A stretch of 64,000 bases of DNA from positions 62,001 through 126,000 of the forward strand of contig JAKSLH010000003.1 in the NCBI GenBank assembly GCA_024401335.1. Reading direction: 5' to 3'. Positions 1 through 62,345 of this stretch are shown one piece after another (position 1 is the stretch's first letter; each line of letters starts with the position of its first letter). The stretch comes from Bacteroidales bacterium. Its GTDB lineage: Bacteria; Bacteroidota; Bacteroidia; Bacteroidales; Marinilabiliaceae. A program made the position numbers and the translations under genes. A model generated the notes under the pieces. The model had not been told where the DNA came from. It saw nothing but the letters and a program-made list of their open reading frames with translations, and ran no database searches.

Positions 1-2
1 CT

Positions 3-2921: not shown

Positions 2922-2937
2922 TTCCAGACTTGCTCTC

Positions 2938-3294: not shown

Positions 3295-3326
3295 GATGTT
3301 TGCTTTTTAGTTGTTTCTAATATGTC

Positions 3327-4049: not shown

Positions 4050-4092
4050 TTTGATGTTGCAAAAGTGCTTCTAATATGATTGATGAACAACA

Positions 4093-4122: not shown

Positions 4123-4130
4123 TATCGAAC

Positions 4131-5057: not shown

Positions 5058-5205
5058 TTAGTATCTTGAATCTATAAAAACATGTCATTATGGCATATTT
5101 CTATTGTTTTATAGGTGCATAATATGTCAAAATGTCTTATTTCTTTGTTTGGCATATCTGTTGTCTTGGTATTTGCAAACATTAAAATGTAAATACAACA
5201 AGCTT

Positions 5206-7788: not shown

Positions 7789-7812
7789 GGTGTTGTTATA
7801 TAGGCAAAAAGT

Positions 7813-7852
7813 AAGGGAGGATGCTCAGTTTGAGCGTCCTCCCTTTGTTGTC
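7813..7852. terminator. Stem-loop between convergent clpB and esterase genes
   Basis: A 15-bp stem with one G:T pair (7813-7827 with 7831-7845) and a 3-nt loop separates the convergent genes. The T tract on either side is short, so it is probably a bidirectional terminator. Confidence 0.7.
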
Positions 7853-7868
7853 TTCGGTTTATGAATGA

Positions 7869-8768: not shown

Positions 8769-8825
8769 ATCTAAATTACTTGTTTCATGACACAAAAGTA
8801 TAAAAATAACAAATACACGCTTTCA

Positions 8826-8867
8826 ACTCTTAAAACTTAATTCTTAATTCTTGACTCTTAAAACTTT
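8826..8867 (+). repeat. Heptanucleotide tandem repeat upstream of ftsY
   Basis: Six head-to-tail 7-bp units of the form (A)xxCTTA: ACTCTTA, AAACTTA, ATTCTTA, ATTCTTG, ACTCTTA, AAACTTT. The fourth unit supplies the TTG of the ftsY -33 box. A related array of GT-type heptamers lies at 45580-45635. Confidence 0.75.
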
Positions 8868-8879
8868 TCATTATTTTTG
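8851..8879 (+). promoter_or_regulatory. Promoter of ftsY-rimO
   Basis: Bacteroidetes-type promoter: -33 element TTG (8851-8853), 18-bp spacer, perfect -7 element TATTTTTG (8872-8879). The ftsY ATG lies 22 bp further on. Confidence 0.7.
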
Positions 8880-8901
8880 CGGAAATAACCGGTTATATAA
8901 G

Positions 8902-11171: not shown

Positions 11172-11205
11172 TTTTCAAGGGGCAATCCCCATAAAACTTT
11201 ATAAT

Positions 11206-11718
11206 ATGGCAAACAACGCTCAAACACTCAAAGACGCCGACTACAAGATCATTCCTGGTTTTGGCTTTGGCAAGGTGAAATTCGGTATTAAGAAGGACGA
11301 ACTCCTCAAGATAATGGGTCAGCCTGACGAAATCGAAGAAGACGCTAATTATGGTGATGCTCCCGATGATAAGGTGACTGTGTTCTACTACGATCAGGAT
11401 GGCTTCTCTGTATCTTTCGACAAGGATGCTAAGTATCGCCTCACTGAGATGTCTTTCGATAGCGACGCTTTCGTTCTCGAAGACAAGGTTAGGGTAGGCA
11501 TGGGCAAGGACGAGGTCCTCGATATCCTTAAGAAGGCGGGCTACGACGAGCCTAGCGAGGAGGATCTATCTGAAGATCTCTCTCCAGAAAACGAGGGCAC
11601 TGAAGCTTATACCTACGACGATAAGAACGTGACTCTCTGGTTCGACCACGAAGTGCTCGGCACTATCCAGACTGGTCCTTTCTGGCTTGATTCTGATACT
11701 ATCAAATGGCCTGAATAA
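11206..11718 (+). CDS. Acidic hypothetical protein with two internal repeats
   Basis: 170 residues, very acidic, with no signal peptide or membrane span. Two halves look alike: GFGKVKFGIKKDELLKIMGQ (about 19-38) and EDKVRVGMGKDEVLDILKKA (about 90-109). Each is followed by beta strands with aromatic FYYD / TYDDKNVTLWF segments, reminiscent of the SmpA/BLIP-like alpha-beta repeat. No function is assigned. It follows rimO by 34 bp with a small GGGG-CAAT-CCCC hairpin (11179-11190) between them, and ends at a strong terminator, so it may be the last gene of the ftsY operon. Confidence 0.75.
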   Translation: MANNAQTLKDADYKIIPGFGFGKVKFGIKKDELLKIMGQPDEIEEDANYGDAPDDKVTVFYYDQDGFSVSFDKDAKYRLTEMSFDSDAFVLEDKVRVGMGKDEVLDILKKAGYDEPSEEDLSEDLSPENEGTEAYTYDDKNVTLWFDHEVLGTIQTGPFWLDSDTIKWPE

Positions 11719-11744
11719 GTTTTTTTCTATCGGCATAAAAAAGA

Positions 11745-11776
11745 AGAGGCTGACTAGTTAATAGTCAGCCTCTCGC
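11745..11776. terminator. Bidirectional terminator between convergent genes
   Basis: Perfect 12-bp stem AGAGGCTGACTA / TAGTCAGCCTCT (11745-11756 and 11762-11773) with a 5-nt loop. An A-rich left flank gives a U tract to transcripts from the minus strand. Confidence 0.8.
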
Positions 11777-11792
11777 TTTATCTGTATGTCAC

Positions 11793-12650
11793 TTAATCTA
11801 TCGCCTCTGCTATTGTGGTGCTGATGATCTTGGCCTCTGTAAGCTGACCAATCTTCCACACTGTCCAGTAGATGCCACACTCCCCGTCATCATCTTTCAA
11901 TGTCAATAGATATCTGAGGTCCGAAAGCTCACATACGTATGCCTGCCTTCCCAGATTCCTAAAAATGATGCTTCGCGATGGTAATTCTGCTCCCATGATG
12001 TCTGCTGCCGAACAGATGATGCCAACGCCCCATCCTCGCATATCTACATTCTCTCCATATTGGTTCACTCCCATCATGTCTCCTGTGGTCTCAAATGTGA
12101 ACTCTACAAGCGCCTTGTCCGAATATCCCTCAAACTGGTCACTTGATATTATTCCTATGTCCGACATCTTGAGCTCCTTGCGCTCGCCATATGTGTGAAC
12201 TCTGTCCAGATATGCATCTTTTACTGTCATCTCACAAATGGTGTCACACAAGAGGAAGATGCTCTTTACTTTGTTTTTGTACTCTTCATTGAGCTTTACC
12301 TTCAGCGATGTCGCTCCATTCACTATGGTCGAGACGTCACGGCTCTCATTGCCTTCTGTTACATATCTTACTATGAGATTGAGCTTGCTTACAGGGCCCT
12401 CTATGTCTTTGAGGTCTACAACAACCAGATCGTAATTGCTTAGGTCATAAAATGCATTTTTGTCTTCCTCGTCTCCTGCTAGCCAGCCTCTTCCACTCCA
12501 TGCATCGTTAAATACTATGTGGCTTGTCTGTGGATCATAGTCTGAAGACCATCCGAAATCCATCTGTGTTTTGTCAAGTATGTTGGGCTCTTTATCTTGA
12601 CATGCGTTGAGTGTTAGGACAACAGCTGCAATTGGTAAAATCTTGTTCAT
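11793..12650 (-). CDS. Hypothetical outer-membrane lipoprotein
   Basis: 285 residues with a lipoprotein signal peptide; the lipobox LNAC gives Cys17, followed by QDKEPN. The rest is predicted soluble and rich in beta strands, with a patterned W/F/Y content (MDFGWSSDYDPQT, GIYWTVWKIGQL). No family was recognised and no catalytic motif is visible. It is a single gene, convergent with the acidic protein and divergent from the first YfiR/TonB cassette; the 260-bp divergent spacer holds the cassette promoter. Confidence 0.75.
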   Translation of the reverse strand: MNKILPIAAVVLTLNACQDKEPNILDKTQMDFGWSSDYDPQTSHIVFNDAWSGRGWLAGDEEDKNAFYDLSNYDLVVVDLKDIEGPVSKLNLIVRYVTEGNESRDVSTIVNGATSLKVKLNEEYKNKVKSIFLLCDTICEMTVKDAYLDRVHTYGERKELKMSDIGIISSDQFEGYSDKALVEFTFETTGDMMGVNQYGENVDMRGWGVGIICSAADIMGAELPSRSIIFRNLGRQAYVCELSDLRYLLTLKDDDGECGIYWTVWKIGQLTEAKIISTTIAEAID

Positions 12651-12848
12651 TGTTGTTTTTGATGATTGCGTTTTTACATAATGGTCATATTACGTATGTT
12701 CATTCTAAAGGTTCTCTTTTGTTCGCTTAATTTCTAATGCGTTTAATTTGTTAAAAACAAGCGACCTATAGGCTTTTTATAGTATATCTCCTCGTCTTTA
12801 CTCTATTATAATAGTAAATTATGCCGATAAACGAATAAAAACTGATGA

Positions 12849-12883
12849 TTTCAATAAAATATAAGTAAAATAGATTAATTTTG
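12849..12883 (+). promoter_or_regulatory. Promoter of the first YfiR/TonB-receptor cassette
   Basis: Perfect -7 element TAATTTTG (12876-12883) with a TTTC -33-like element (12849-12852) 23 bp upstream. The start codon is 28 bp downstream in an A-rich leader. Confidence 0.6.
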
Positions 12884-12911
12884 CATCAATATATAACAAG
12901 AGAAAAGTAAA

Positions 12912-13415
12912 ATGAAAAAATCAATCCTAACACTGCTTTTAGTGTTGTTCGCTATGTCGGCAAAAGCACAGATGGCACAGTTCCAAGCACTGTACATCTA
13001 TAATTTTGCTAAGAACATCGGCTGGCCTTCAGAAGATGCATCGAAAGAACTAGTCATCACAATCATAGGTGACAATGATTTGGCTGCAGAACTCAACAAG
13101 TTGGCTGCATCTAAGGCTATCGGTTCCCGTAAGGTCGTTGTTAAAGAATCAGCTACTGCTAATGGCTTGCAAAAGTCAGACATCATTTGTCTTGGCGACG
13201 CAAAATCTAGCCAGATCTCTTCTCTTCTCGCAGCTCAAGAGGGTAACAAGAACCTTATCGTTTGCGGCAAGAAAGGATTGTGCGCTCAGGGTGCAGGCAT
13301 ATCTTTCGTCTCAGAAGGCGGCAAGTTGAAATTCGAAATCTCCAACAAAAACATTTCTAAACGAGGTCTTCAGGTCAGCCAGAAGCTGTTGCAGCTTGGC
13401 ACAGAAGTAGACTAA
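12912..13415 (+). CDS. YfiR-like (DUF4154) periplasmic protein, copy 1
   Basis: 167 residues: signal peptide (about 1-19, ending SAKAQ), then the DUF4154/YfiR fold with ALYIYNFAKNIGWP, VITIIGDNDLAAEL and GISFVSEGGKLKFEISNKN. Cysteines at ICLG and VCGKKGLC may form disulfides, as in Pseudomonas YfiR. In Pseudomonas, YfiR restrains the diguanylate cyclase YfiN; no GGDEF protein is present here, so the output must differ. It is 16 bp ahead of a TonB receptor and nearly identical (about 90%) to copy 2. The physical pairing suggests it works with the receptor in the periplasm (inference). Confidence 0.85.
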   Translation: MKKSILTLLLVLFAMSAKAQMAQFQALYIYNFAKNIGWPSEDASKELVITIIGDNDLAAELNKLAASKAIGSRKVVVKESATANGLQKSDIICLGDAKSSQISSLLAAQEGNKNLIVCGKKGLCAQGAGISFVSEGGKLKFEISNKNISKRGLQVSQKLLQLGTEVD

Positions 13416-13431
13416 TCGAAACAACTCTAAG

Positions 13432-16338
13432 ATGAAAATAAAATTTATTGTATTAGCATTGGCTGCGATGTTATTGTCGGTTGACATGACAGCACAGCAA
13501 CAGTTGACAAAAGAACAAATTCTTAACATGTCAATAGAGGAACTCTCTGAGTTGCCTCTCGAAGATTTGATGCAGGCTGTTGAGACACTCGGTGTATCAA
13601 GCGTTGATGAACTTTTTGCTATGATTATGAACAAGAATGTCTCTTCTGCTTCTAAGAAGGAGGAAGATACATTTACTTCGCCATTGTCATCAACAGTTAT
13701 CACTAAGAACGAGATGCGTACCTATGGTGTGACATCTATCGAGGAGGCTTTCCGCCTTATCCCTGGTATGATCGTTACCGAAAAGACTAACGGTATGTAC
13801 GACGTTCAGATGCGTGGTCTCAACAATATCCCTGACAACAACATGTATCTCTATACTGAGAATGCCAACACTCTTATCATGATTGATGGCCGTCCTGTTC
13901 AGAGCTACGTGATGGGTTCTTGTAACTTCGATGTGCTCCCTATCTCTATCGAAGATATCGAACGTATCGAGGTTGTTCGTGGTGCTTGCGGCGCTCTCTA
14001 TGGTGCTAACGCTGTTACTGGCGTTATCAATATCCTTACAGAGAAGCCTGGTGAGTCTTCTAACCTCATTAGCGGTAACATCCAGATGGGTTCACAGAAC
14101 ACTTACATTGGCGATTTCGCTGTTCGTAAGGCTTTCAACAACAAGATCGCTGCTGGTCTTACTGTTAATATGCAGCATCGTGAGCGTCCTACTGATAAGC
14201 TCTATGTTATCCCAGGTCAGAGCGGTCTGTTCTATTGCGACAATAACGCTATAATGCCAGAACCTGGTGCTGTCGAATATACTGTTTACTCTTCTGAATT
14301 CGATAAGGAATTCCGTAAGTACAAGACATCAGATCCACAGACATATCTCGCTCTCTACCAGCAGAAGGCTTTGCTTCTTCAGCAGCGTCTTGGTGTGATG
14401 CAGGCTGGTAACGGTGTCGGTGGGTACTATAATGTGTCTGAAATCGACCAGTTTAAGCAGTTCTATCCTGAATATGATGATCAGGGTCAGCAGATTGTTT
14501 CTTATCGTATTTTCGATGCTAAGGAACCAGAAACTCCAGGTGCAAATATGTTCCCATCACCCGAACTCGCTCGTAAGCAGGCTGGTATCAATGCATACAT
14601 CACTTTGACTCCTGCTCCTGATGTTACAATCAATATCACCGGTGGTTATCAGAACTCAGAGGCTAAATCTACTCCTGTAGGTGATGATATCTTCTCATTC
14701 AATGGCCGTATATCTAAGACTGGTCACGCTACTCTCGACGCCTCAATCAAGGATCTTCGCGTTCTTGCAAATTATCATGGCGGTGTTCAGAATTATGCAG
14801 AGGGCGTCCCTGGCTTCAAGATTTTTGTTAATGAGTTCAACGCTTCTGCTGAATATGACTTCAACGTTGGTGGACTCGGGATTCGTCCAGGTATCTCTTA
14901 CCAGAATCTTCAATATGACGATTATGTTCCTGACTACTATGATGAAGCTAATAAGAAATGGATGTTCCATGATCCTGGCTACAAGTATAAGGAAGGTACT
15001 AACAACCACCTCTCTGGCTTCTTGACTTATGGCGGTAAGCTCGAGACTATTGCTCCTAGTGTTCGCCTTGACTATAAGCTCGGTGATGTTCGTCTCATCG
15101 GTGCATACCGTGCCGACAAGACTAATATCCCTGATAAGTGGCACCACTCATGGCAGTTCGCCGCTAGCTACTCTATAAACGACAACAACTTCATCCGTCT
15201 TGTTTATGGTCGTGCTAATCGCGGTACTAACCTCGTTAACTCTACTGCCGACTTCGAATGGACTCGTACTAATATGGTCTATCCTAAGCGTCTCCACTTC
15301 GAGAAGAACAAGGAAGCTGACTTCATGAAGATCGATAACATCGAACTTGGTTATCGTTGGAAGCCTTCTCAGAAGGTGCTCGTTGATGCAGAATTGTTCT
15401 ACTCTATAAGCAACAACTACGGTGCCCTCATGGCTAGCTCTGCTTCTATGAATGTTCAGAACGAAGGTACACAGGCTATCATAATGAAGCTTCGTGAAGG
15501 TCTCAATATTTATGAGGGTATGTTTGGTGGTCGTGAGGGACTTGCTCAGGCTGTTGCCGCTAACCCTGATCTCATCAAGGAGGCTCTTACTAAGATGATC
15601 TCTGGTTCGGGCGACTCCTATGAAGATGAGGGTTTCGACCTCGGTCTTCTCCTCGAGCCTTATGCTAACATCAAGTACTCTTCACTACCTTATAAGGTTA
15701 ATCAGATTGGTCTTTCATTCAACGTTGACTACATCATCTCTTCTAAGTTGATCGCTAAGTTGAACGCTAACTTCCAGAATACTACTATCGACAACTATTA
15801 TGTCTACAACCAGACTAGCGATATTCAAGCTATGCTCGGCGAGGCTAAGGGAAGCGCAACTAATGAACTCTCACAGGCTTTTGCTGGCATCATTCAGCAG
15901 TATCTCTTAAATGGTAAGTCTGTTAAGGAGGCTGCCGATCTAGTTCTTGGTCCTAAGTATAACGCAAAGAAGAACTGGTCTGAATTCGGTAATACTACTA
16001 TTACTCACGACGACTCTTCTACTCCTAAGTCTAATGGCGTTAAGCATAAGGATACACCTTCTTTCTATGGTATGCTCGGCCTTATCTATAAGCCTATGCA
16101 GCAGCTCGAGGTTTCGGCTTTCGCTAACTTCATCGGTAAGCGTACCTACACTACTAAGTATGGCGCTGAAAAACTCGACAACCGTTGCACTGTCAACATG
16201 AAGGTTGGTTATAAGCCTATACAGCAGATGGAGTTGTTCTTCAATGCTCACAACCTCTTTAATACCGAAAAGCGCGAATTCGTTTATTGCGACGAAATCG
16301 GCGGTATCTACACCATCGGTGTTAACTTCGGTTTCTAA
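13432..16338 (+). CDS. TonB-dependent outer-membrane receptor, copy 1
   Basis: 968 residues. It has a signal peptide, then a distinctive helical N-terminal stretch (ILNMSIEELSELPLEDLMQA, then SSVDELFAMIMNKNVSSASK) instead of the CarboxypepD-like domain of SusC. The plug domain follows (SSTVITKNEMRTYGVTSIEE, ERIEVVRGACGALYGANAVT, GVINILTEKP), then a long beta-barrel ending in aromatic GIYTIGVNFGF. It imports an unknown ligand using TonB energy. No SusD partner is present; instead it is paired with a YfiR-like gene. It ends at a terminator before the second cassette. Confidence 0.92.
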   Translation: MKIKFIVLALAAMLLSVDMTAQQQLTKEQILNMSIEELSELPLEDLMQAVETLGVSSVDELFAMIMNKNVSSASKKEEDTFTSPLSSTVITKNEMRTYGVTSIEEAFRLIPGMIVTEKTNGMYDVQMRGLNNIPDNNMYLYTENANTLIMIDGRPVQSYVMGSCNFDVLPISIEDIERIEVVRGACGALYGANAVTGVINILTEKPGESSNLISGNIQMGSQNTYIGDFAVRKAFNNKIAAGLTVNMQHRERPTDKLYVIPGQSGLFYCDNNAIMPEPGAVEYTVYSSEFDKEFRKYKTSDPQTYLALYQQKALLLQQRLGVMQAGNGVGGYYNVSEIDQFKQFYPEYDDQGQQIVSYRIFDAKEPETPGANMFPSPELARKQAGINAYITLTPAPDVTINITGGYQNSEAKSTPVGDDIFSFNGRISKTGHATLDASIKDLRVLANYHGGVQNYAEGVPGFKIFVNEFNASAEYDFNVGGLGIRPGISYQNLQYDDYVPDYYDEANKKWMFHDPGYKYKEGTNNHLSGFLTYGGKLETIAPSVRLDYKLGDVRLIGAYRADKTNIPDKWHHSWQFAASYSINDNNFIRLVYGRANRGTNLVNSTADFEWTRTNMVYPKRLHFEKNKEADFMKIDNIELGYRWKPSQKVLVDAELFYSISNNYGALMASSASMNVQNEGTQAIIMKLREGLNIYEGMFGGREGLAQAVAANPDLIKEALTKMISGSGDSYEDEGFDLGLLLEPYANIKYSSLPYKVNQIGLSFNVDYIISSKLIAKLNANFQNTTIDNYYVYNQTSDIQAMLGEAKGSATNELSQAFAGIIQQYLLNGKSVKEAADLVLGPKYNAKKNWSEFGNTTITHDDSSTPKSNGVKHKDTPSFYGMLGLIYKPMQQLEVSAFANFIGKRTYTTKYGAEKLDNRCTVNMKVGYKPIQQMELFFNAHNLFNTEKREFVYCDEIGGIYTIGVNFGF

Positions 16339-16365
16339 AGTCTAGTTATCTAATCGATAATAGCC

Positions 16366-16401
16366 AGAGGCTGCCTCATTTTGAGGTGGTCTCTTTTTTT
16401 T
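16366..16401 (+). terminator. Terminator after TonB receptor copy 1
   Basis: 13-bp stem with three G:T pairs (16366-16378 with 16382-16394), 3-nt loop and eight T residues. It separates the two cassettes transcriptionally. Confidence 0.85.
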
Positions 16402-16540
16402 GTCTAAACCAGAACTAGTTTGTTCGATTATGCGTAATTTTTGTCATATTGTGTAATATCATGTTTTTTTCTTAAAAACTCAGCAACTAAATATCACACT
16501 ATTCGTACCAATCAAAAAATCATTTTAACAAACTGAGAAA

Positions 16541-17044
16541 ATGAAAAAACTATTTCTAACTTTTTTGCTAGTATGCAGCTGCGTTCTTGCAAAGGCTCAG
16601 ATGGCACAGTTCCAGGCACTGTACATCTACAACTTTGCTAAGAACATCGGATGGCCAGCTGATGATGCATCCAAAGATCTGGTTATTACTATCATCGGTG
16701 ATAACGATCTTGCTGCTGAACTTAACAAACTTGCCGCTTCTAAAGCTATTGGATCACGCAAGGTTGTCATCAAAGAATCTGCTACGACCAACGGATTGCA
16801 GAAGTCTGACATTATCTGCCTCGGCGAATCAAAGGCCGGTCAGATCGCTTCTCTTCTCTCTGCTCAAGAGGGTAACAAAAATCTTATCGTATGCGGTAAG
16901 AAAGGCCTTTGCTCACAGGGTGCCGGTATAGCATTCGTATCTGAAGGTGGTAAGCTTAAGTTCGAGATTTCTAACAAGAACATCTCTAAGCGTGGCCTTC
17001 AGGTGAGCCAGAAGCTCCTTCAGCTCGGTACAGAGGTCGATTAA
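16541..17044 (+). CDS. YfiR-like (DUF4154) periplasmic protein, copy 2
   Basis: 167 residues, the same length as copy 1 and about 90% identical in the mature part. Changes are mostly conservative (for example SED to ADD, GDAKSSQISS to GESKAGQIAS), while many synonymous positions differ. The signal peptide (MKKLFLTFLLVCSCVLAKAQ) has diverged more than the mature protein. The cysteines of ICLG and VCGKKGLC are kept. It is 27 bp upstream of TonB receptor copy 2. A weak -7 candidate lies in the 139-bp spacer after the copy 1 terminator, but none is convincing. Confidence 0.85.
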   Translation: MKKLFLTFLLVCSCVLAKAQMAQFQALYIYNFAKNIGWPADDASKDLVITIIGDNDLAAELNKLAASKAIGSRKVVIKESATTNGLQKSDIICLGESKAGQIASLLSAQEGNKNLIVCGKKGLCSQGAGIAFVSEGGKLKFEISNKNISKRGLQVSQKLLQLGTEVD

Positions 17045-17071
17045 CTAATGTAAGATAATTAAATCAGTAAT

Positions 17072-20017
17072 ATGAATATCAAATACGTAGCAACGTTGCT
17101 CTTGGCTGCTATCGTCTCTGCCGAGATTAGCGCTCAGCAACAGCTAACTCGTGAGCAGATTCTCAACATGTCAATTGAGGAACTTTCCGAATTGCCTTTG
17201 GAAGATCTTATGCAGGCTGTCGAGACTCTTGGCGTGTCAAGTGTCGACGAACTCTTTGCAATGATTATGAATAAGAATGTGTCTTCAGCGTCTAAGACTG
17301 AAGAGGATTCATTCACTTCTCCTTTGTCTTCTACTGTTATCACTCGTGATGAGATGCGCACTTATGGCGTCTCTACTATCGAGGAGGCTTTTCGTCTTAT
17401 TCCTGGTATGATCGTTACCGAGAAGCTTAACGGTATGTACGACGTCCAGATGCGTGGCCTCAATAATATCCCTGATAACAACATGTTGCTCTATACCGAG
17501 AATGCTAATACGCTCATCATGATCGATGGCCGTCCGGTACAGACTTATACTATGGGTTCACTCAACTTCGATATACTTCCTATCTCTATCGAGGATGTTG
17601 AGCGTATCGAGGTTGTTCGTGGTGCCTGCAGCGCTCTCTATGGTGCAAATGCTGTAACAGGCGTTATCAATATCCTTACAGAGAAGCCTAGCGAAAGCTC
17701 TGACTTCGTTAGCGGTAGCATACAGATGGGCTCTCATAGCACATACGTCGGTGAAATAGCTTTGCGTAAGGCTTTCAACAGTAAGGTAGCTGCGGGCTTG
17801 ACTGTCAATATGCAATACCGCGAACGTCCTACCGACAAGCTCTATGTTATACCTGGTCAGGATGGTCTCTTCTATTGCGACAACGCTAGCATCATGCCTG
17901 AGGCTGGCATTCAAAACTTTTCTCCTTATTCTGAAAAGTTCGACCGCGAATTCGCTGCTCTTAAGGAGACCGACCCTGAAGCTTATCAGGCTAAATACCT
18001 TGAGGCTGTTGCTCTCTACAAGCAACGTATGCAGACCGTAATGGCTAGCCAGGCTGTTGGTGGCTACTATTCTGTTAATGAGCTCGGCAACTTCAAGCAG
18101 CTCTATCCTGTTGCTTACGATGCTGATGGTAACATTACCGAATATCGTATCTTCGACGCTATGGAACCACAGGCGCCTGCTTCTGAGATGTTCCCTAATC
18201 CTCAGATCGCTCGTAAACAGGCTGCTTTCAATGCTTATTTGACTGTTAAGCCTGCTAAGGATGTGGTGCTTAACTTTACTGGTGGCTATCAGAACTCTTT
18301 GGCCAACGCTACTCCTGTAGGCGACGATATCATGTCTTTCAATGGTCGTACTTCTAAGACTGCCTACGTGGCTCTCGATGCCTCTGTGAAAGATCTCCGC
18401 GTTCTCGCTAACTACCATGTGGGTCCTCACAACTATGCAGTTGGCGTTCCTGGCTTTAAGATTAATGTTAAGGAGTTCAACGCTTCTGCTGAATACGATT
18501 TGCATGTGGGCGGCCTCGGCATTCGTCCTGGCATCTCTTATCAGAACCTCAAATACGAAGACTACGCTCCTGAATATACTAACAGGGCTACTTACGAATG
18601 GGAATTCAAGGATCCTGGCTATAAGTATGAAGAGGGTAAGGATCGCCACCTCTCTGGCTTCCTCTACTACGATACTGAACTCAAGACTATTGCTCCTAGC
18701 GTTCGTCTCGACTATAAGCTCGGTGATGTCCGCCTTATCGGTGCTTACCGTGCCGACAAGACTAACATACCTGACAAGTGGCACCACTCTTGGCAGCTCG
18801 CCGCTAGCTACTCTATCAACGAAAACAACTTTATCCGTTTCGTTTATGGCCGAGCTAATCGTGGTACTAACGTGGTTAACTCTTCTGCCGACTACGACTG
18901 GGAACGTACCAATATGGTCTATCCTCGTCTTCTCCACTTCGAGGCTAACGAAGATGCAGATTTCGTAAAAATCGACAATTTCGAGCTTGGATACCGCTGG
19001 AAGCCTACGAACAAGGTGCTTGTCGACGCAGAGCTGTTCTATTCGAAGAGTGATCAGTATGGAGCACTCATGGCTCACGAGGGTGAGATGCTTGTGTCAC
19101 AGGAAGAGATGACAAAGATTATCTATCTCTGTAAGACTACAGCTGACGGCTATCTAGCACAGGGCTATAAATACCAGATGTTTGCTAACAAGGACCTCCA
19201 GAAGTTTGTTCTTCTAAACCTTGTCAACAATGCCGACATGGGTACTGTCCTCGAGCCATACGCTTCTATTAAGTACAACCAGTTGCCTTATGAGGTACAT
19301 CAGGTAGGCCTCTCATTCAACATCGACTATATCATCTCTTCTAAGTTGATCGCTAAGTTGAATGCTAACCTCCAGCGTACTATCATCAACAACTACTACG
19401 AGTATAGCCAGACTGACGACGTTAAAGCTCTCTTGCAGAAGGCTCAAAACAGAGCGTTCGGCTTCAGCATCGACCAGTCTAAGTACGATCCAGCTAACCC
19501 TCTCGCTATGTACAACATCGATGGCGAGGTTCCACAGGCATTCTTCGATCTCGTTGACCGCTACATCAAACTCTGCGATGATAACGGCGGAGTACAGCCA
19601 GAAGGTGTATGGCAGAAGGCTGGCGAGCCACTCTTTGACAACTATGACGTACGCCGTAACTCTTGTCACTTCGGTAAGACTTCTGCCGACGAACTTGAGC
19701 GTGAATTGCGCGACGGTCACGTACATAAGGCTACTCCAGCATTCTACGGTATGCTCGGTCTTATCTACAAGCCTTTGCAGCAACTCGAGGTTTCAGCATT
19801 CGCCAACTTCATCGGTAAGCGTACATTCCTCTTGAAGTATGGTACTTCTGAACTCGACAACCGTTGCACTGTAAACATGAAGGTTGGTTACAAGCCTGTC
19901 AACAATTTCGAGATCTTCTTCAACGCTCATAACCTCTTCAATACAGAGAAGCGTGAGTTCTCATATTGCGATAAGATCGGCGGAATCTATACAATTGGTG
20001 TCAACTTCGGATTCTAA
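17072..20017 (+). CDS. TonB-dependent outer-membrane receptor, copy 2
   Basis: 981 residues, collinear with copy 1: signal peptide, the same helical IEELSELPLEDLMQA segment, plug (ERIEVVRGACSALYGANAVT) and barrel ending GIYTIGVNFGF. Plug and strand regions are nearly identical between copies. Sequence and length diverge sharply in segments likely to be extracellular loops, for example after SDQYGALMA (about residues 655-725) and DDVKALLQKAQNRAFGFSI (about 785-880). This suggests the two receptors take up different ligands. The gene ends at a terminator. Confidence 0.92.
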   Translation: MNIKYVATLLLAAIVSAEISAQQQLTREQILNMSIEELSELPLEDLMQAVETLGVSSVDELFAMIMNKNVSSASKTEEDSFTSPLSSTVITRDEMRTYGVSTIEEAFRLIPGMIVTEKLNGMYDVQMRGLNNIPDNNMLLYTENANTLIMIDGRPVQTYTMGSLNFDILPISIEDVERIEVVRGACSALYGANAVTGVINILTEKPSESSDFVSGSIQMGSHSTYVGEIALRKAFNSKVAAGLTVNMQYRERPTDKLYVIPGQDGLFYCDNASIMPEAGIQNFSPYSEKFDREFAALKETDPEAYQAKYLEAVALYKQRMQTVMASQAVGGYYSVNELGNFKQLYPVAYDADGNITEYRIFDAMEPQAPASEMFPNPQIARKQAAFNAYLTVKPAKDVVLNFTGGYQNSLANATPVGDDIMSFNGRTSKTAYVALDASVKDLRVLANYHVGPHNYAVGVPGFKINVKEFNASAEYDLHVGGLGIRPGISYQNLKYEDYAPEYTNRATYEWEFKDPGYKYEEGKDRHLSGFLYYDTELKTIAPSVRLDYKLGDVRLIGAYRADKTNIPDKWHHSWQLAASYSINENNFIRFVYGRANRGTNVVNSSADYDWERTNMVYPRLLHFEANEDADFVKIDNFELGYRWKPTNKVLVDAELFYSKSDQYGALMAHEGEMLVSQEEMTKIIYLCKTTADGYLAQGYKYQMFANKDLQKFVLLNLVNNADMGTVLEPYASIKYNQLPYEVHQVGLSFNIDYIISSKLIAKLNANLQRTIINNYYEYSQTDDVKALLQKAQNRAFGFSIDQSKYDPANPLAMYNIDGEVPQAFFDLVDRYIKLCDDNGGVQPEGVWQKAGEPLFDNYDVRRNSCHFGKTSADELERELRDGHVHKATPAFYGMLGLIYKPLQQLEVSAFANFIGKRTFLLKYGTSELDNRCTVNMKVGYKPVNNFEIFFNAHNLFNTEKREFSYCDKIGGIYTIGVNFGF

Positions 20018-45635: not shown

Positions 45636-46461
45636 TCTGTGCCGCCTTCCAAGCTTCCATTGCTTCTGCCTCTTCTGCACGGTAGCTTGCCATACGTGCC
45701 AACATACCGTCCCAGTCAACCTGATGTGCATCAAATTCAGGACCGTCAACACATACAAACTTGGTCTTGCCACCTACAGTAACACGACATGCACCACACA
45801 TACCTGTTCCGTCAACCATGATTGTATTCAAGCTGACTACAGTAGGGATGTCATATTTCTTTGTTGTGAGCGCACCAAACTTCATCATGATAGCTGGACC
45901 GATAACTACAGCCTCAGTAACCTTCTCCTTGGCAATGACGTCTTCCATACCTACAGTAACAACGCCCTGCTTTCCGTATGAACCATCGTCTGTCATGATA
46001 ATGACTTCATCTGCACTCTTACGAACCTCGTCCTCAAGAATGATAAGATCTTTTGTACGTGCTGCGAGAACTGCAACTACTCGATTGCCAGCTGCCTTGT
46101 GAGCCTGGATGATAGGGAGCAATGGAGCAACACCTACACCACCACCACATGCCAATACTGTGCCTTCCTGCTTCTCGATCTTTGTTGCCTGGCCAAGTGG
46201 ACCAACAACGTCTGTAATATAGTCACCTACATTGAGGTTGAAAAGCTTGTTTGTTGACACGCCAATACGCTGAACTACAAGTGTAATTGTGCCCTTTTCT
46301 ACATCGCTGCCTGCGATTGTCAAAGGAATGCGCTCGCCATCCTCACCTATACGTATGATTACGAAGTGACCTGCACGACGCGACTTGGCAATACGTGGAG
46401 CCTCCACAACGAACTTTGCTACATTAGCTGAAAAAAGTTCCTTACCAACGATTTTGTTCAT
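45631..46461 (-). CDS. nfnA: NfnA / sulfide dehydrogenase-like FAD-NAD subunit
   Basis: 276 residues. FAD domain with RRAGHFVIIRIG and IPLTIAG, NAD domain with [12 protein letters not shown], and a [2Fe-2S] site with CGACRVTVGGKTKFVC. The C-terminus (VDWDGMLARMASYRAEE) is typical of NfnA and absent from PyrK. It binds NAD(H) and passes electrons to NfnB. The two genes are separated by 92 bp containing the heptamer array. Its stop overlaps the end of the repeat. Confidence 0.82.
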   Translation of the reverse strand: MNKIVGKELFSANVAKFVVEAPRIAKSRRAGHFVIIRIGEDGERIPLTIAGSDVEKGTITLVVQRIGVSTNKLFNLNVGDYITDVVGPLGQATKIEKQEGTVLACGGGVGVAPLLPIIQAHKAAGNRVVAVLAARTKDLIILEDEVRKSADEVIIMTDDGSYGKQGVVTVGMEDVIAKEKVTEAVVIGPAIMMKFGALTTKKYDIPTVVSLNTIMVDGTGMCGACRVTVGGKTKFVCVDGPEFDAHQVDWDGMLARMASYRAEEAEAMEAWKAAQK

Positions 46462-56495: not shown

Positions 56496-56523
56496 ATTAA
56501 ACATAATACAAATTCTAAGACAA
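56496..56523 (-). other. dif: Candidate dif site (XerC/XerD recombination site)
   Basis: Read on the minus strand: XerC-side arm TTGTCTTAGAA (56513-56523), 6-bp centre TTTGTA (56507-56512), XerD-side arm TTATGTTTAAT (56496-56506). The XerD arm matches E. coli dif (TTATGTTAAAT) at 10 of 11 positions. The XerC arm shares 7 of 11, including TAGAA at the crossover edge, with B. subtilis dif (ACTTCCTAGAA). The 11-6-11 spacing is exact. The site is intergenic and lies exactly where gene orientation and GGGTAG motif polarity switch. Family comparison is from memory; the function is inferred. Confidence 0.72.
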
Positions 56524-56565: not shown

Positions 56566-57903
56566 CTAATTCACCAAGTTTCTAAACATCCATTCAGGAT
56601 CATCAGATAACATATCATTATCTGGCCAGTTCTCCACATTTTTAATTGCGGCATCCATAACCAGACGCAGCATGGTTGCAAGCTCAGGACCTCTATGATT
56701 TGAACAGTTGAGTAAAACTACATAACAGATATCATTATCAAGTCTTCCTATAATAGCTGATGTGGCCGCCAATGTTCCTGTACGATACCAAGAGTCACCA
56801 ATTATTCTACGCCATCCTAAAGGATCATATCCAGGTTGACAATTAACCATTGTATCAACTGTTTGCTTACCTAACTGGTCTATGATGCTTTGATGACCAT
56901 CTATGGTTAGTACCAATTTCAATAAATCTGTTGCACTTGAAACCCATCCTCCGGCAGATCCTAGTGTATGAATGTCTGTGCCTCCATAAGCTCTTCTAAC
57001 CATCTCACCGGTTCCTGTATAATCAAATGCTACATGGCTTGTGTCAGCTTCATAATAAACGACTTCATTATCTAGTCTTTCATTCAGGTATGAATACCCT
57101 ATCTGTGAGTCATATATTCCTAATGGCGCCAATACTTCACTTTTCACATAATCTTCGTATGGCATTCCCGACGCTTTAGCTACAATCTCTCCTAATATGC
57201 CATAACCAAAATTAGAATATATCGATGCAGAACCTGGCTTAAAATGCATCGATTTCGTTTGCATGAAACGTATGATATCTTCCATCTTAATAGGCAATTC
57301 CTTGCCCATTTGACGCGCTATAGACTGTGGCATGAACATCGGATCTCCATACCTAGCAGTCCAGCCTCCAGAATGGTTAAGAAGCTGGTAGACAGTAACA
57401 TCTCCCATTCTTTTGTCTTTATATGCTAGATATTTGTCATTATTAAGAACTCCAGTAGGTCCAAAAACCTTCTGATGTAGGCCTATACTACCCTTTTCTA
57501 CTAATTTCATTACAGCGACCGCCGTAATTAGTTTCGATACACTGGCCACACGCAGGATATTACCAGGTAACATCGGTACGCTATCCTCAACACTGCTAAA
57601 ACCGATTCCTTTGGCATATACTAGCTTACCATTTTTGCTTATTGCAACTGAAGCACCTCCCTTTAATCCCTCTCGCTTTAATAACCTGTATATGGTTTTA
57701 TCTATTACATCTATTACTGTATCGCTATTCTGAACCTGGTATGATTCACCCTTTATCTTATCTGTATTGCATACAGTTTTTATTTCTGGATGAGAAACCT
57801 CAGACAATAAACCCAATGTCAATTTACCAGTCGTGGCTACAAACAGCACAACCAGAATGATAAATATGACTTTTGATTTTATTGACGTTTTCATCAGAAT
57901 CAT
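56566..57903 (-). CDS. Serine hydrolase, class C beta-lactamase/DD-peptidase family
   Basis: 445 residues with an N-terminal membrane anchor (KVIFIILVVLFVATTGKLTL). Penicillin-binding-type motifs: SVSK in RVASVSKLITAVAVMKL (catalytic Ser and Lys) and YSN in IYSNFGYGILGEIV. Such proteins are esterases, peptidases or cell-wall enzymes rather than necessarily antibiotic-resistance enzymes. The ATG overlaps the stop of the DUF4105 gene by four bases (ATGA), indicating translational coupling; a second ATG three codons later is possible. Confidence 0.85.
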   Translation of the reverse strand: MILMKTSIKSKVIFIILVVLFVATTGKLTLGLLSEVSHPEIKTVCNTDKIKGESYQVQNSDTVIDVIDKTIYRLLKREGLKGGASVAISKNGKLVYAKGIGFSSVEDSVPMLPGNILRVASVSKLITAVAVMKLVEKGSIGLHQKVFGPTGVLNNDKYLAYKDKRMGDVTVYQLLNHSGGWTARYGDPMFMPQSIARQMGKELPIKMEDIIRFMQTKSMHFKPGSASIYSNFGYGILGEIVAKASGMPYEDYVKSEVLAPLGIYDSQIGYSYLNERLDNEVVYYEADTSHVAFDYTGTGEMVRRAYGGTDIHTLGSAGGWVSSATDLLKLVLTIDGHQSIIDQLGKQTVDTMVNCQPGYDPLGWRRIIGDSWYRTGTLAATSAIIGRLDNDICYVVLLNCSNHRGPELATMLRLVMDAAIKNVENWPDNDMLSDDPEWMFRNLVN

Positions 57904-59099
57904 TTAACTACCGATCTTTTCAAAAGATTGCCATTACGTATTGTCAAAGCAATAGCGATAGGAATACTCATTGATGGGATGTCTTGTACTCCTATTACAC
58001 TTAACAAAATGAAAAGCGCAAGAAATACAATATTTGCTGAAGTTAATATCCTTGTCAACTTAATCGATATTTTATTTCTGAGCAATAAAACGATAATAGG
58101 CCAATATAGAATTGATGCCCAAAGAACATTTATATTCAACGAACATACGCTATGCTTTGTAAATAGCCATAAATACCAAAACAAGAGCGATAAAAGCGCA
58201 CACGACAAGAATAAAACAACATCAAAGGACTTGATGTATGTTGTATACCTGTATTCTATCAAAAATATCAATATACTAATGATGAGTATACTCCATCCTA
58301 GTAAATCCGGAGATATTGTAAACGAACTTGATTCTAAAGTTGTAAACTCTTTCTCTATGACTAACTGTTGTTTACTGATTGTATTATTGTTTACAAACAA
58401 AGAGTCTAAGTAAACTGGTAAATATGCTCTATTATATGCATCTGCTAAATCGTCAGTTTTCATACCTAATAGCAGGTCGATTCCTTGAGCGGTCCAACTT
58501 GATTCTGGCACATAATAATGGATATAATCTCTATACGTCCATCCGTTTGTAGATCTGTTATTATCAAGATTTCTGTCTATCCCCTTTGCCTTGAAAACGA
58601 TATCTCTAATTCTAGTGGCACAATTATCGAAAAAGAAATCATATCTATAAAAGCGATTGTCAGGACTAATATTCCATACAAGATACTCCCATAACTGCTC
58701 CTTTTGCGTATCTGATAAGTCTAATATACTCTCTGTTACAGATCGATTATCACGCTTATATGCTGCTATAAACTGCCTGTAAAGGTTTGTAGAAAGCATG
58801 TAGTCGAGATCACCGTTCATAAACTTCAAATAGAAGTTCGGAGTATTAAAATCGAATGTTCCATAATTAAATACAACATCGATATTTAGTGAATCATCTA
58901 CTACACGTAAAGCACTATGACCAAATACAGAGTATAACTCATCACCACTTGAACATGTCAATAGAGATATTCTTGACTGTTTACTTAGTTTAATTACTTG
59001 AGCGTTTACACTAGTAAACACACATAATAATGAAATAATTACAAGTAAACACTTATATACTACCCTTGTAAACACCCTTATATTATTTGTAAACAACAT
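57900..59099 (-). CDS. DUF4105 (Lnb N-terminal-like) membrane protein
   Basis: 399 residues: signal peptide (about 1-34), a periplasmic DUF4105 domain with LLTCSSGDELYSVFGHSALRV, FNYGTFDFNTPNFYLKFMNG and DFFFDNCATRIRD (a Cys-containing papain-like pattern), then about four membrane helices at the C-terminus. Function is not established; homology to the Lnb N-terminal domain is a family description. The gene is AT-rich and unusually dense in GTTTAC/GTAAAC hexamers (11 inside it). It follows pyrD by 6 bp. Confidence 0.82.
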   Translation of the reverse strand: MLFTNNIRVFTRVVYKCLLVIISLLCVFTSVNAQVIKLSKQSRISLLTCSSGDELYSVFGHSALRVVDDSLNIDVVFNYGTFDFNTPNFYLKFMNGDLDYMLSTNLYRQFIAAYKRDNRSVTESILDLSDTQKEQLWEYLVWNISPDNRFYRYDFFFDNCATRIRDIVFKAKGIDRNLDNNRSTNGWTYRDYIHYYVPESSWTAQGIDLLLGMKTDDLADAYNRAYLPVYLDSLFVNNNTISKQQLVIEKEFTTLESSSFTISPDLLGWSILIISILIFLIEYRYTTYIKSFDVVLFLSCALLSLLFWYLWLFTKHSVCSLNINVLWASILYWPIIVLLLRNKISIKLTRILTSANIVFLALFILLSVIGVQDIPSMSIPIAIALTIRNGNLLKRSVVK

Positions 59100-59105
59100 T
59101 AAAGT

Positions 59106-60026
59106 TTACAGAAGTAAACCTCCTGTAAGTTCTTTTACAGAATCTATCTTATGACGAACAAGGTATTCTTGTATACCGTTTACAACTTGAACACTAATGG
59201 TAGGATCAATGAAATTAGCTGTACCTATCTGAATCGCAGACGCACCAGCAAGGAGGAATTCTACAGCGTCAGTAGCAGAACATATACCACCAAGACCAAC
59301 TACAGGAATATTCACCGCTTTAGATACCTGCCATACCATGCGCAATGCAACAGGTTTTACTGCAGGACCTGATAAACCACCAGTAACAGTAGAAATGACT
59401 GGACGACGTCGTTCAGCGTCTATTGCCATTCCTAAAAGTGTATTTATCAAGGATACTGAATCGGCACCTGCACCTTCTACAGCCTTAGCAATATCAGCAA
59501 TTGAAGTCACATTTGGTGTAAGCTTTACCATCAAATGTTTCTTGTAAACCTTACGAACGGCTGAAACAACATTTGCTGCTGACTCACAACTTGTTCCAAA
59601 CCCCATGCCACCCTCTTTTACATTAGGACATGATATGTTCAACTCTATAGCTGGTATATTATCGAGCTCATTGATGCGTTCTGCTGTTGCTACATAATCT
59701 TCAACACATGAACCTGATACGTTTACAAGAACCTGTGTCTTAGTATACTTCTTCAATTTTGGATTGATATTATCACAGAAGTAATCAACTCCCTTATTCT
59801 GCAATCCTACAGCATTTATGATGCCCCTAGGAGTCTCAGCGAGACGTGGATATGCATTGCCTTCACGAGGCTTTAATGTTGTTCCTTTTACGATAATGCC
59901 ACCGAGTGAATCAACATCGATGAAATCATCATACTCATAGCCATATCCAAATGTACCAGAAGCCGTCATTACCGGATTCTGCAACTTAAGTCCTTTGCCT
60001 AAGTCAACTGACAAATTTACTCCCAT
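59106..60026 (-). CDS. pyrD: Dihydroorotate dehydrogenase B, catalytic subunit
   Basis: 306 residues of TIM-barrel class 1[18 protein letters not shown] at the start, [11 protein letters not shown] with the catalytic cysteine, FMN-contacting VKLTPNVTS and the late [20 protein letters not shown] phosphate site. It oxidises dihydroorotate to orotate in pyrimidine synthesis using NAD through PyrK. It overlaps pyrK by 10 bp. The DUF4105 gene begins 6 bp after its stop, and a GTTTAC/GTAAAC dyad sits on that junction. Confidence 0.96.
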
Positions 60027-60796
60027 TTCAAATCGTTTATATCAAATACAGGACCTTCTGAACAAACACATTTGTGACCCTTCTTGGTGTCTGTAACACA
60101 GCAGAGACAAACACCAATGCCACATGCCATCTTGTTTTCAAGAGATACATAGCATGGTATACCTGAAGCCTTAGCCACCTTTGAAATAGCTTTCATCATT
60201 GGTGTTGGACCACATACTAGCATACTTGTAAACTGATTTACTCCAGACTTGAGGAACTCATGATCTGTGACAAATCCCTTTGTACCAGCAGTTCCATCTT
60301 CTGTAGTAACAGCAACATTTCCTATCGACTTATATGCATCCATTCTTAGTAAACCATCTGCAGAACGTGCACCCAAAAGATAATTGACATCGCTGCCGTT
60401 CTCTTTGAGTATATGTCCTAGATATAGCAATGGTGCAACACCTACACCACCACCAATAAGAAGAGGACGATTGCCCGCCTTTGAACAATCGAATCCATTA
60501 CCTAATGGGTAAACAAGATTAAGAGTGTCATTTTGTTTGAGTAAGCCAAGCATTCTTGTTCCATTTCCTACTGTTCTAATTAGAAGTGTAATGGTGTTGG
60601 CTTCCCTATCTACATAGTGAACCGAGATAGGTCTACGAAGGAAAGTTCCTGCAGTGTCTGGTATTTTTACTTCGACAAACTGACCTGCATTGATTTCTGG
60701 CAGGTTATCAGGATGCTTAAGCGTAAGCAGTATATAATCGGGTTCTATAGCCTCGATCTGCTTAACCGTAAAATCAGTTGTAAATCTTTTCAGCAT
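60017..60796 (-). CDS. pyrK: Dihydroorotate dehydrogenase B, electron-transfer subunit
   Basis: 259 residues. FAD domain with [11 protein letters not shown] and [13 protein letters not shown] domain with [13 protein letters not shown], and a C-terminal [2Fe-2S] site [20 protein letters not shown]. It carries electrons from PyrD's FMN to NAD. It is the first gene of the pyrK-pyrD-DUF4105-serine hydrolase operon, with a well-formed promoter upstream. Confidence 0.95.
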
Positions 60797-60818
60797 TGCT
60801 GGTCTGTTTTATATATCG

Positions 60819-60850
60819 CAAAAATATAAGAAAAACAGCCATTATGCAAA
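60819..60850 (-). promoter_or_regulatory. Promoter of the pyrK operon
   Basis: Minus-strand -33 TTTG (60847-60850), 20-bp spacer and perfect -7 TATTTTTG (60819-60826), 22 bp before the pyrK ATG and just after the XRE gene stop. Confidence 0.8.
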
Positions 60851-60853
60851 TTT

Positions 60854-61435
60854 TCAATAATTCAATGTATCTGGCTTATATAGCGAGAATGAACCATCTG
60901 TATAAAAGACAACTATTTTAGATACTATTTTACCCGCATTCTCGTTGTTTTCAATGGTTTTTGCTATTGCAGGAGCTGCACTTTCACGACGAGAAGATGG
61001 TTCATGATAGCTTCTGTTTTTATCATGACTCACTTCCTTTTCCTCAGATGATTGACTTGATATATTTGAGTCTCTAACAACATTGGAATGATTATTGTCC
61101 GACATAGACTCATCAGACAACAATGAACTGTCAACTGGAGAATCATCATTGTTTACAGAAAATAGATCAAATGATGGTTGTACTGCAACATGGTTTACAG
61201 AATTATTGCGATTTACAGCCTTAAGCATATCGCCATTGCCTGTCAACAACCACTCTTTATTGATATCAGGAAACGCACTTAATATATTATCGATTGTAGT
61301 TTCAGTAAACGAACTCCCGCGTCCACTTGGTGACATGACATGTGATACCATTCCCTTTGAAACACCTATACGCTGCGCGAATTCTGTCTGGTTAATATTG
61401 TAGTGCTGAAGCAATCTGATAATACGTTCTCTCAT
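60854..61435 (-). CDS. XRE-family transcriptional regulator
   Basis: 193 residues. N-terminal HTH (about 1-70: YNINQTEFAQRIGVSKGMVS, INKEWLLTGNGDMLK) of the type common in Bacteroidetes. A long, low-complexity Ser/Asn/Asp linker (about 85-160) follows, then a short conserved C-terminus (KIVSKIVVFYTDGSFSLYKP). No S24-type protease motif was seen, so it is not a LexA/CI-like self-cleaving repressor. Its promoter contains a TGTAAA-T-TTTACA palindrome between the -33 and -7 boxes, pointing to autorepression. It may be the binding protein for the GTTTAC cluster (inference). Confidence 0.82.
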   Translation of the reverse strand: MRERIIRLLQHYNINQTEFAQRIGVSKGMVSHVMSPSGRGSSFTETTIDNILSAFPDINKEWLLTGNGDMLKAVNRNNSVNHVAVQPSFDLFSVNNDDSPVDSSLLSDESMSDNNHSNVVRDSNISSQSSEEKEVSHDKNRSYHEPSSRRESAAPAIAKTIENNENAGKIVSKIVVFYTDGSFSLYKPDTLNY

Positions 61436-61470
61436 ATAATCAATTATTGGTTTACTTGTAATATACAGTA

Positions 61471-61501
61471 CAAATATATGTAAATTTTACAAGTCAACAA
61501 A
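61471..61501 (-). promoter_or_regulatory. XRE-gene promoter with overlapping palindromic operator
   Basis: Minus-strand -33 TTTG (61498-61501), 19-bp spacer, perfect -7 TATATTTG (61471-61478). The spacer holds the 13-bp palindrome TGTAAATTTTACA (61479-61491), the relaxed form of the GTTTACA motif; a further GTTTAC lies downstream at 61450. Confidence 0.75.
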
Positions 61502-61531
61502 CCAAAATCGAATTAAATAACAAACAATTTT

Positions 61532-61563
61532 GTTTACACATATAACGCTTATATATGGTAAAC
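61532..61563. repeat. 32-bp inverted repeat built on GTTTAC arms
   Basis: GTTTACACATATAA (61532-61545) is mirrored, with small mismatches, by TTATATATGGTAAAC (61549-61563) around a CGC centre; another GTTTAC follows at 61569. It looks like a strong dyad protein site upstream of the XRE promoter. Confidence 0.6.
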
Positions 61564-62290
61564 TATGTGTTTACATATATAGCAAATAGATTAAACACAC
61601 TAAACAGTACTGAACCAAAACTATAGTAGATTATAGCATTTTGCTGATTATTAAGATATTATAAATACAAATATGTATATAAAAGGCGTTTACTACCCTA
61701 TTTATACATATTAAACATATATATGTGGTTTATATAAACACATCTAATCAACTGATTATCAATACTTATTATATTATAATAACAACATTGTAATATCGTG
61801 TAAACAAGGTGATTTACATGTATTTCTGTTGTATACATAAGAATTTACTTAAAGACGAGAGAATTAATGATTGTTTACTAGTTTACATGTAGTATACATC
61901 AATACCACCCTACTCTATTTTCTTCGTTTGTTATAATCAATAACGAAAATGAACAGTGGTTTATTGTTTAATGAATACTGTATTAGCTAAAACAGTAAGA
62001 TGTATGGACTGAATCTAGTCTAAAGCTTAAATCCATACACTAATCGCACAAACAGGTCTTTTTCTATCCTTCATTATCCTTGATAGAGAAATTATAATTA
62101 TTGAATTATGAATAGGTATATTATGTTAATGTCATTATTGAAGGGAAAAGCCAATTTTTTACTACAGGTTACCGTCACCAGGGATAGATGAAATCTCTTT
62201 GTATATACATATGTAGTTCGCTCGAGCCTTGATAGCTATTTCTAAACCAATTAACTTGATTATAGTATTCATTCATTTACAGAAATTGAC
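61564..62290. other. Long AT-rich non-coding region upstream of the XRE gene
   Basis: Together with the promoter and dyad above this is a 910-bp gene-free stretch (61436-62345), the longest in the window. It contains further GTTTAC hexamers (61569, 61688, 61800, 61873, 61881), an 8-bp inverted repeat TGTATGGA / TCCATACA (62001-62008, 62032-62039), and a small less AT-rich patch (about 62166-62250). No DnaA boxes, tRNA or convincing ORF were seen. Confidence 0.6.
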
Positions 62291-62291
62291 A

Positions 62292-62324
62292 TAAAAAAAA
62301 ATGACGCCCTATACAAGGCGTCAT
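62292..62324 (-). terminator. Terminator of the secA-lgt operon
   Basis: Perfect 8-bp stem ATGACGCC / GGCGTCAT (62301-62308, 62317-62324) with an 8-nt loop. The A run at 62293-62301 gives a long U tail on the minus-strand transcript. Confidence 0.92.
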
Positions 62325-62345
62325 TTATAATGAATTATCGTCTAA

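Follow-up and report, generated by a model that had tools for sequence, protein, structure and literature searches.

A compact, non-polar GTTTAC array around a dif-linked XRE gene in a group of Bacteroidales: a candidate nucleoprotein site near the chromosome terminus

RESULTS

We analyzed a 64,000-nucleotide stretch of the draft genome of a Bacteroidales bacterium (GCA_024401335.1, contig JAKSLH010000003.1, positions 62,001 to 126,000; hereafter the window), in which the hexamer GTTTAC and its complement GTAAAC form a dense array that surrounds the gene for an XRE-family protein and lies beside a dif-like site. The array itself, the selection that maintains it, its recurrence in a group of related genomes, the linkage of the XRE gene to the dif-like site, and a related motif at the XRE promoter are all observed. 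Judging from the sequences, the XRE protein very probably binds the array. As an overall explanation we propose, with our confidence evenly divided, that the dif-linked XRE protein would form a compact nucleoprotein site at the terminus; whether the array has a terminus-related role of any kind we likewise judge to be finely balanced.

The array occupies positions 58318–61886 (no strand) and is defined by word counts, recurrence in relatives, and selection at synonymous sites. The window holds 54 copies of GTTTAC on both strands, 30 of them inside the array; the initial annotation had counted 29 copies here, a number we correct to 30, and the strong excess that it reported stands. Dinucleotide shuffles of the window (n = 100) gave 25.2 ± 5.2 copies and never reached 54, and Markov simulations of orders 1, 2, and 3 (400 per order, from the composition of 58301–61900 itself) gave means of 2.3, 2.6, and 8.9, with maxima of 7, 10, and 17, against the 30 observed. 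GTATAC, a minor array word, adds 7 further sites in 57801–62000. The 30 words are distributed over the gene for a DUF4105/Lnb-like membrane protein (Lnb; 57900–59099, minus strand; 11 words), pyrD (dihydroorotate dehydrogenase; 59106–60026, minus strand; 4 words), pyrK (electron-transfer subunit; 60017–60796, minus strand; 3 words), the XRE gene (60854–61435, minus strand; 3 words), and DNA that is intergenic or spans gene ends (9 words), with coding sequence holding 21 of the 30. The densest part (58979–59183, no strand) packs 9 words into 205 bp where Lnb starts and pyrD ends, and the intergenic region upstream of XRE (61436–62345, no strand) carries array words plus TGTAAA/TTTACA words near the promoter. 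Over 372 sites in 14 genomes, GTATAC counted too, the orientation of the words is mixed and no preferred spacing or helical phase is clear, in keeping with the non-polar, multi-site zone originally described, which is probably protein-bound.

The genome assembly (2.715 Mb in 33 contigs, 84.6% complete) contains 1033 copies of GTTTAC (0.38/kb). Because the same word read backwards is more frequent (1852 copies), GTTTAC is not a common word genome-wide. In a sample of 58 stretches that we chose elsewhere in the genome (1.115 Mb), we counted 390 copies (0.35/kb), with at most 6 per 3.6 kb, and the window outside the array reaches at most 4 per 3.6 kb. Together with the window this sample covers ∼43% of the genome, within which no second similar cluster was found; this includes 8 stretches of the same contig as well as the window outside the array. 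The density of the stretches and the rest of the window predicts ∼987 copies genome-wide, compared with 1033 counted, and hence a further cluster in the other 57% is not needed. The cluster at 58318–61886 therefore exceeds all simulations and everything else that was read, and is real. One of the sampled stretches (L177; contig C8, positions 1–20000) has 12 GTATAC per 20 kb, compared with 0–4 in 19 companion stretches, and is a possible second cluster.

Recurrence of the array in relatives

The loci of 20 relatives were read for up to 20 kb around XRE, making 21 with the window. A pyrD–pyrK tree, rooted for drawing only, splits 14 of these (13 of the genus, including the window, and G017 of another genus; hereafter the group) from the other seven with a support of 100/100. 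In every one of the 14 group genomes XRE is surrounded by an array of GTTTAC or of a variant of it, and no such array was seen in the other seven family loci. GTTTAC is the top over-represented hexamer of the XRE–pyrD region in 9 of the 14 group loci and is among the top three in 12, with GTATAC ranking first in G008; two other group loci feature TGTAAA, accompanied by ATTTAC in G012 and by GTAAAA in G011. In array regions of 4–8 kb, with boundaries set by eye, the GTTTAC counts are 30 for the window; 26, 22, 27, 39, 26, 15, 23, 22, 14, 25, and 9 for loci L061 to L071; 21 for L075; and 1 for L077. The probability of the array word by chance reaches 1e-20 in the strongest group loci and 1e-6 in G017, where the array alone would not convince. 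A dense array in all Bacteroidales was rejected on 20 order-level loci, where the strongest word is ATATTA (34 versus 12.2 expected, in L212). The cluster, XRE, and the dif-like site do stay together in close relatives, which the initial annotation had suggested as a check, whereas the GTTTAC array is not a trait of Bacteroidales at large and is confined to the 13 genomes of the genus and the one of another genus.

Selection on coding DNA

We shuffled synonymous codons within each gene, preserving both the protein and its codon usage, and pooled the results over 13 of the 14 group loci (L077 was left out, and GTATAC was counted too in L066). GTTTAC was observed 42 times in pyrK against 10.3 expected, 34 against 10.0 in pyrD, 88 against 21.8 in Lnb, and 36 against 11.0 in the XRE frame read from stop to stop. 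Given that the word stands three- to fourfold above the synonymous shuffles in these four genes, selection keeps array words in coding DNA. The serine-hydrolase gene on the dif side, present in 8 of the 13 loci, has 5 words against 3.5 expected, 4 of the 5 coming from L064. The loci also vary, with an excess in no gene of L071 and in pyrD alone of L069. Individual sites turn over: across 12 of the 14 loci, 32 pyrD sites fall at 12 positions, 39 pyrK sites at 17, and 87 Lnb sites at 51, with one pyrD and one pyrK position common to 7 of the 12 genomes. The suggestion that motifs might persist at synonymous sites is thus borne out for the word, which is selected there, and not for its positions, which are shared only in part. 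A fixed set of site positions, which we also considered, holds only partly, and the shared positions are partly forced by the protein sequence.

The XRE protein

The XRE protein has 193 residues, with a helix-turn-helix (HTH) domain at residues 1–66, a disordered linker, and a C-terminal β hairpin. The AlphaFold model is confident for the HTH (block means of 84–98 over residues 1–70), disordered in the middle, and ends in a short hairpin with strands at residues 174–177 and 183–186, for which 29 aligned relatives give the consensus IxRIVIFYxDGTFxxYxP. The top Foldseek match is 434 Cro (probability 1.00, E-value 0.04), a likeness that, for this predicted model, holds at the fold level only. The Pfam HTH matches (E-values 0.002–0.005) and the NCBIfam matches are below cut-offs, and a PHROG regulator match has an E-value of 2.9e-10. 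Sequence and model together point to a Cro/P22-c2-like HTH protein with a domain of the HTH_3 or Phage_CI_repr type. Neither Pfam nor NCBIfam gives a match for the hairpin, no peptidase-type domain is among the Pfam matches of the protein, and no solved homologue of the whole protein was found, the matches being at the HTH level only. A close phage or plasmid origin was rejected, the HTH matches being distant only.

Matches to XRE were obtained in 34 of 41 genomes, that of the window among them, and in 130 of 148 genomes of the order; within the genus, 13 of 15 genomes have an orthologue and the remaining two weak matches only. The first residue of the recognition helix is lysine in the 12 GTTTAC genomes, serine or glutamine in G012 and G011, whose altered words lack the outer G, and arginine in the seven array-less family relatives. 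XRE matches were also seen on two further replicons. A 375-kb "plasmid" of Parabacteroides distasonis (L287; NZ_OY725779.1) has XRE together with the core genes nqr, holA, pyrK, and pyrD and may be a chromosomal piece, and a 1.77-Mb Prevotella replicon labelled a plasmid (L286; NC_022111.1) contains an unannotated XRE match.

Words at the XRE promoter

We counted words in the 150 bp upstream of XRE and, as controls, in the other upstream regions of the same loci. In the group, TGTAAA occurs at 14 of 14 XRE promoters and GTTTAC at 13 of 14, compared with 38 and 33 of 226 controls. At 75 Bacteroidales loci outside the group (L119 and L209, being one and the same contig, were counted once), TTGTAA, TGTAAA, and GTTTAC are found at 61, 59, and 29 XRE promoters, compared with 226, 221, and 100 of 1178 controls. 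Bacteroidota promoter elements are rich in TTTG, which may add to these counts. An unbiased dyad scan of the 75 loci (4-base half-sites, spacers of 0–8) placed TACA-N2-TGTA first, with 150 sites in 76.8 kb upstream versus 23 in 863 kb, a 72-fold difference. At least one such site lies within 7 kb of XRE in 55 of the 75 loci, with up to 10 per locus, and group loci have 0–2; most sites are <1 kb from the XRE start, with a lesser rise near the end of pyrD. Candidate binding words across the lineages are GTTTAC, GTATAC, ATTTAC, and TTACATTTGTAA. On these patterns, the family seems to have had an ancestral operator mini-array, with the group later adopting GTWWAC and expanding the array, and autoregulation of XRE through the promoter words is probable. 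The GTTTAC array is specific to one group, whereas other Bacteroidales have a different palindrome, with a smaller number of sites that lie mainly in the XRE promoter.

Linkage to a dif-like site

A 25-base dif-like Xer site lies at 56497–56521 (minus strand), with an aminopeptidase gene on one side and the serine-hydrolase gene on the other; the first array word follows 1.8 kb to its right. It is recognized by comparison only, being conserved among relatives and presumably resembling E. coli dif, and a change in GC skew occurs on the same contig. A conserved dif-like sequence near a skew change makes this a candidate Xer/dif site; the genome has four tyrosine-recombinase matches. Another string, at ∼62102–62131, which we had also taken to look like E. 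coli dif, was matched in no relative and was replaced by the conserved site. The initial placement of the cluster beside dif is accordingly right in that a conserved dif-like site adjoins the array, with the location corrected to 56.5 kb, on the far side of the serine-hydrolase gene. The skew of the window contig is positive left of ∼32 kb, mixed to ∼116 kb, and negative beyond, with the dif-like site at 118.5 kb. Between ∼32 and 116 kb of this contig (C23), which includes positions 1–54000 of the window, the skew fluctuates around zero for ∼85 kb left of dif; to the right of dif it stays negative throughout, as might be seen if termination occurred over a broad zone on one side only. In Alkaliflexus imshenetskii (G021) the sign changes at ∼4.003 Mb, between XRE at 4.001 Mb and dif at 4.009 Mb (4-kb resolution); values around the change are small, and a single negative stretch occurs at 3.92 Mb.

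In 19 family genomes XRE and a dif-like match occur on the same contig, always 4–29 kb apart, with sites of up to 2 mismatches in 15 of the 19; in G014, G020, and G023 the two fall on separate contigs. Across the order, both were found in 89 genomes, and in 34 of the 89 they lie within 30 kb on one contig, versus ∼2% by random placement; this is the fair figure because short contigs favor short distances. The 43 one-contig pairs have a median distance of 12.6 kb, with 26 within 15 kb, 34 within 30 kb, and five at >50 kb, and the distance is 2.2 kb in L212. A match to PF10418, the pyrK-type iron-sulphur domain, is missing in 5 of these 43 genomes, and in six more the only match is on another contig, with XRE and dif within 23 kb in all six; in two further genomes with the sole PF10418 match on another contig, XRE and dif are 55 and 89 kb apart. 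XRE thus often stays close to the dif-like site even when not accompanied by pyrK. In L087 (around 12408–13450) the dif-like site is only ∼0.5 kb from an XRE gene, which lies on the other side of pyrD.

DISCUSSION

In the explanation that we propose, the dif-linked XRE protein of Bacteroidales would bind short sites around its own gene and assemble with them into a compact nucleoprotein complex, some kilobases away from dif. The site would have become the non-polar word GTWWAC in the window group, and the array would have grown there to 14–39 GTTTAC over 4–8 kb in most genomes, through neighboring coding sequence. The HTH would read the word, and the long disordered linker, together with the conserved hairpin at the C terminus, would attract a partner or connect bound proteins to one another, such that XRE would cover several kilobases beside dif and present many hairpins to that partner. 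The complex might label the terminus either for late segregation or for the activity of FtsK/Xer at the septum; XRE would also repress its own gene. The initial annotation had proposed a protein-binding zone with an embedded XRE regulator; the gene is indeed embedded and its product the probable binder, whereas the binding, like the hairpin partner, the autorepression, and the terminus role, is something that we infer from the sequences. A more far-reaching version, which we hold tentatively and with rather less than even confidence, is a terminus marking of the Bacteroidales' own, in which XRE would seed a centromere-like complex next to dif, the hairpin would dock, and the terminus would be handed to the division machinery, the array having been enlarged in the coding DNA of the group and its word having co-evolved with the recognition helix.

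Several observations weigh against a terminus complex of this kind. The linkage depends on the identity of dif, which is assigned by resemblance, and in the family it is partly circular because the search pattern was built from sites near XRE in the window family. At up to 3 mismatches this pattern matches 37 of 41 genomes and its reversed controls 30 of 41, and therefore weak single matches prove little; at 2 mismatches it matches 96 of 148 order genomes, and the reversed control 31. Four of the 19 family pairs (G007, G012, G015, and G016) use 3-mismatch sites, with an equally good match elsewhere in G007, G015, and G016. In 46 of the 89 order genomes XRE and dif are on different contigs and thus uninformative, 9 of the 43 one-contig pairs are >30 kb apart (up to 112 kb), and 18 of the 148 order genomes have no XRE match at an E-value of 1e-8. 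The stretches of many named loci showed no dif match, and those of the Parabacteroides (L287) and Prevotella (L286) replicons no close one; the XRE–dif link may partly be inherited gene order. The array spans XRE, pyrKD, and Lnb and leaves dif uncovered. Outside the group, the palindromes lie near the XRE start and seldom at dif (2 of 25 loci, one a duplicate), the pattern expected of simple autoregulation, and no comparable array is present in the 20 order-level loci, which were picked for a near XRE–dif pair. Words as strong as that of G017 arise by chance, such as CAACAA at 1e-9 in L087, and unrelated words reach 1e-7 to 1e-9 in a few loci outside the group. Because G012 and G011 are sisters, the change in helix and word counts as a single event, and the correlation of K27 with the word reflects one event or two.

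The main rival is a purely regulatory array, in which XRE would be an autorepressor whose multiplied operators also tune pyrKD and Lnb, its place near dif being inherited gene order without function. The concentration of operator palindromes at the XRE promoter outside the group and the widespread position of XRE next to pyrK and pyrD are what this predicts. On the other hand, 30 sites in 3.6 kb, 21 of them in coding sequence and kept against synonymous shuffling, would seem to exceed the needs of promoter control, and in 11 genomes with no PF10418 match, or with the sole one on another contig, XRE is still found close to the dif-like site; on balance we regard this reading as possible yet doubtful. 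A further alternative is chance or a composition artefact, or words bound by some other protein. The array stretch is A+T-rich (GC 0.357), which speaks for an artefact, but simulations of Markov orders 1–3 never gave 30 words, the same or a variant word recurs in 14 genomes with its positions turning over, and related words stand in the XRE promoter itself; we consider these options together very improbable.

A replication-fork barrier would resemble Tus-Ter or RTP but lack polarity: the array, covered by the protein whose gene adjoins it, would stall forks at the terminus. Such a barrier would fit the compactness of the sites and the position of array and gene at or near the GC-skew change. 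It is less likely than the regulatory array, and unlikely overall, because the array has no polarity and there is no sharp skew change at it: orientation is mixed, no phasing is clear, and the skew on the window contig fluctuates over ∼85 kb left of dif; the dense array is also missing from the 20 order-level loci. In RTP/Ter and Tus/ter the terminator protein gene is close to its own terminus sites, and the XRE gene likewise sits beside its putative ones. The window differs in having a single array in the part read, with many short, unphased sites of no polarity, and a Cro-type fold. No Tus or RTP family is among the Pfam matches of XRE, and the words do not form polar fork-arrest sites flanking the terminus; the original statement that this is not a polar fork trap is therefore upheld.

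Broadly, the proposed terminus complex would work like MatP/matS, RacA/ram, or RTP/Ter. MatP is a sequence-specific protein with repeated terminus sites, and the window has 30 non-polar words beside a dif-like site. The 13-bp matS is repeated 23 times in 800 kb, as reported (PMC3330122). The window word is GTWWAC, packed in ∼3.6 kb with the XRE gene inside its own array, whereas matS is dispersed over hundreds of kilobases. No MatP family is among the Pfam matches of XRE up to an E-value of 0.1, and PF06303 was not found in the window genome (84.6% complete), with a positive E. coli control; we propose that the array may be MatP-like in role, by analogy and not by homology. RacA/ram, Noc, and SlmA combine a DNA-binding part and a separate recruiting part with many sites, and RacA sites are origin-proximal. 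The sites of Noc are scattered and those of SlmA are concentrated toward the origin, as reported (PMC4331003, PMC4117426), whereas the window array is terminus-proximal and compact. The analogy first drawn with matS/MatP, Noc, and SlmA applies to a multi-site zone next to a dif-like site; the compact array is unlike the scattered matS or Noc sites. With the phage Cro/CI repressors (434 Cro, P22 c2) XRE shares the HTH fold, a palindromic operator outside the group, and distant PHROG repressor matches; it differs in being chromosomal, present in 130 of the 148 order genomes, and endowed with a conserved short C-terminal hairpin. The best matches listed in searches of open papers showed no terminus-binding protein of Bacteroidales.

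That the XRE gene often remains near the terminus in other Bacteroidales, and that the array recurs in close relatives, is a hint that the terminus may be marked in a manner not yet described. The location of the array in coding sequence means that a binding signal would shape synonymous codon choice. Being conserved, linked to dif, and associated with a defined DNA word, the XRE gene offers a direct handle for experiments.

XRE, pyrK, pyrD, and Lnb are found together in all 20 relatives, with a serine-hydrolase gene beyond Lnb in 15 of them. In four close species (L063, L067, L068, and L070) XRE is inverted relative to pyrK, and the array around it is kept. The window also has a second PF10418 match at 45715–45828 (minus strand; G000 contig C23, 107715–107828), 14 kb left of pyrK.

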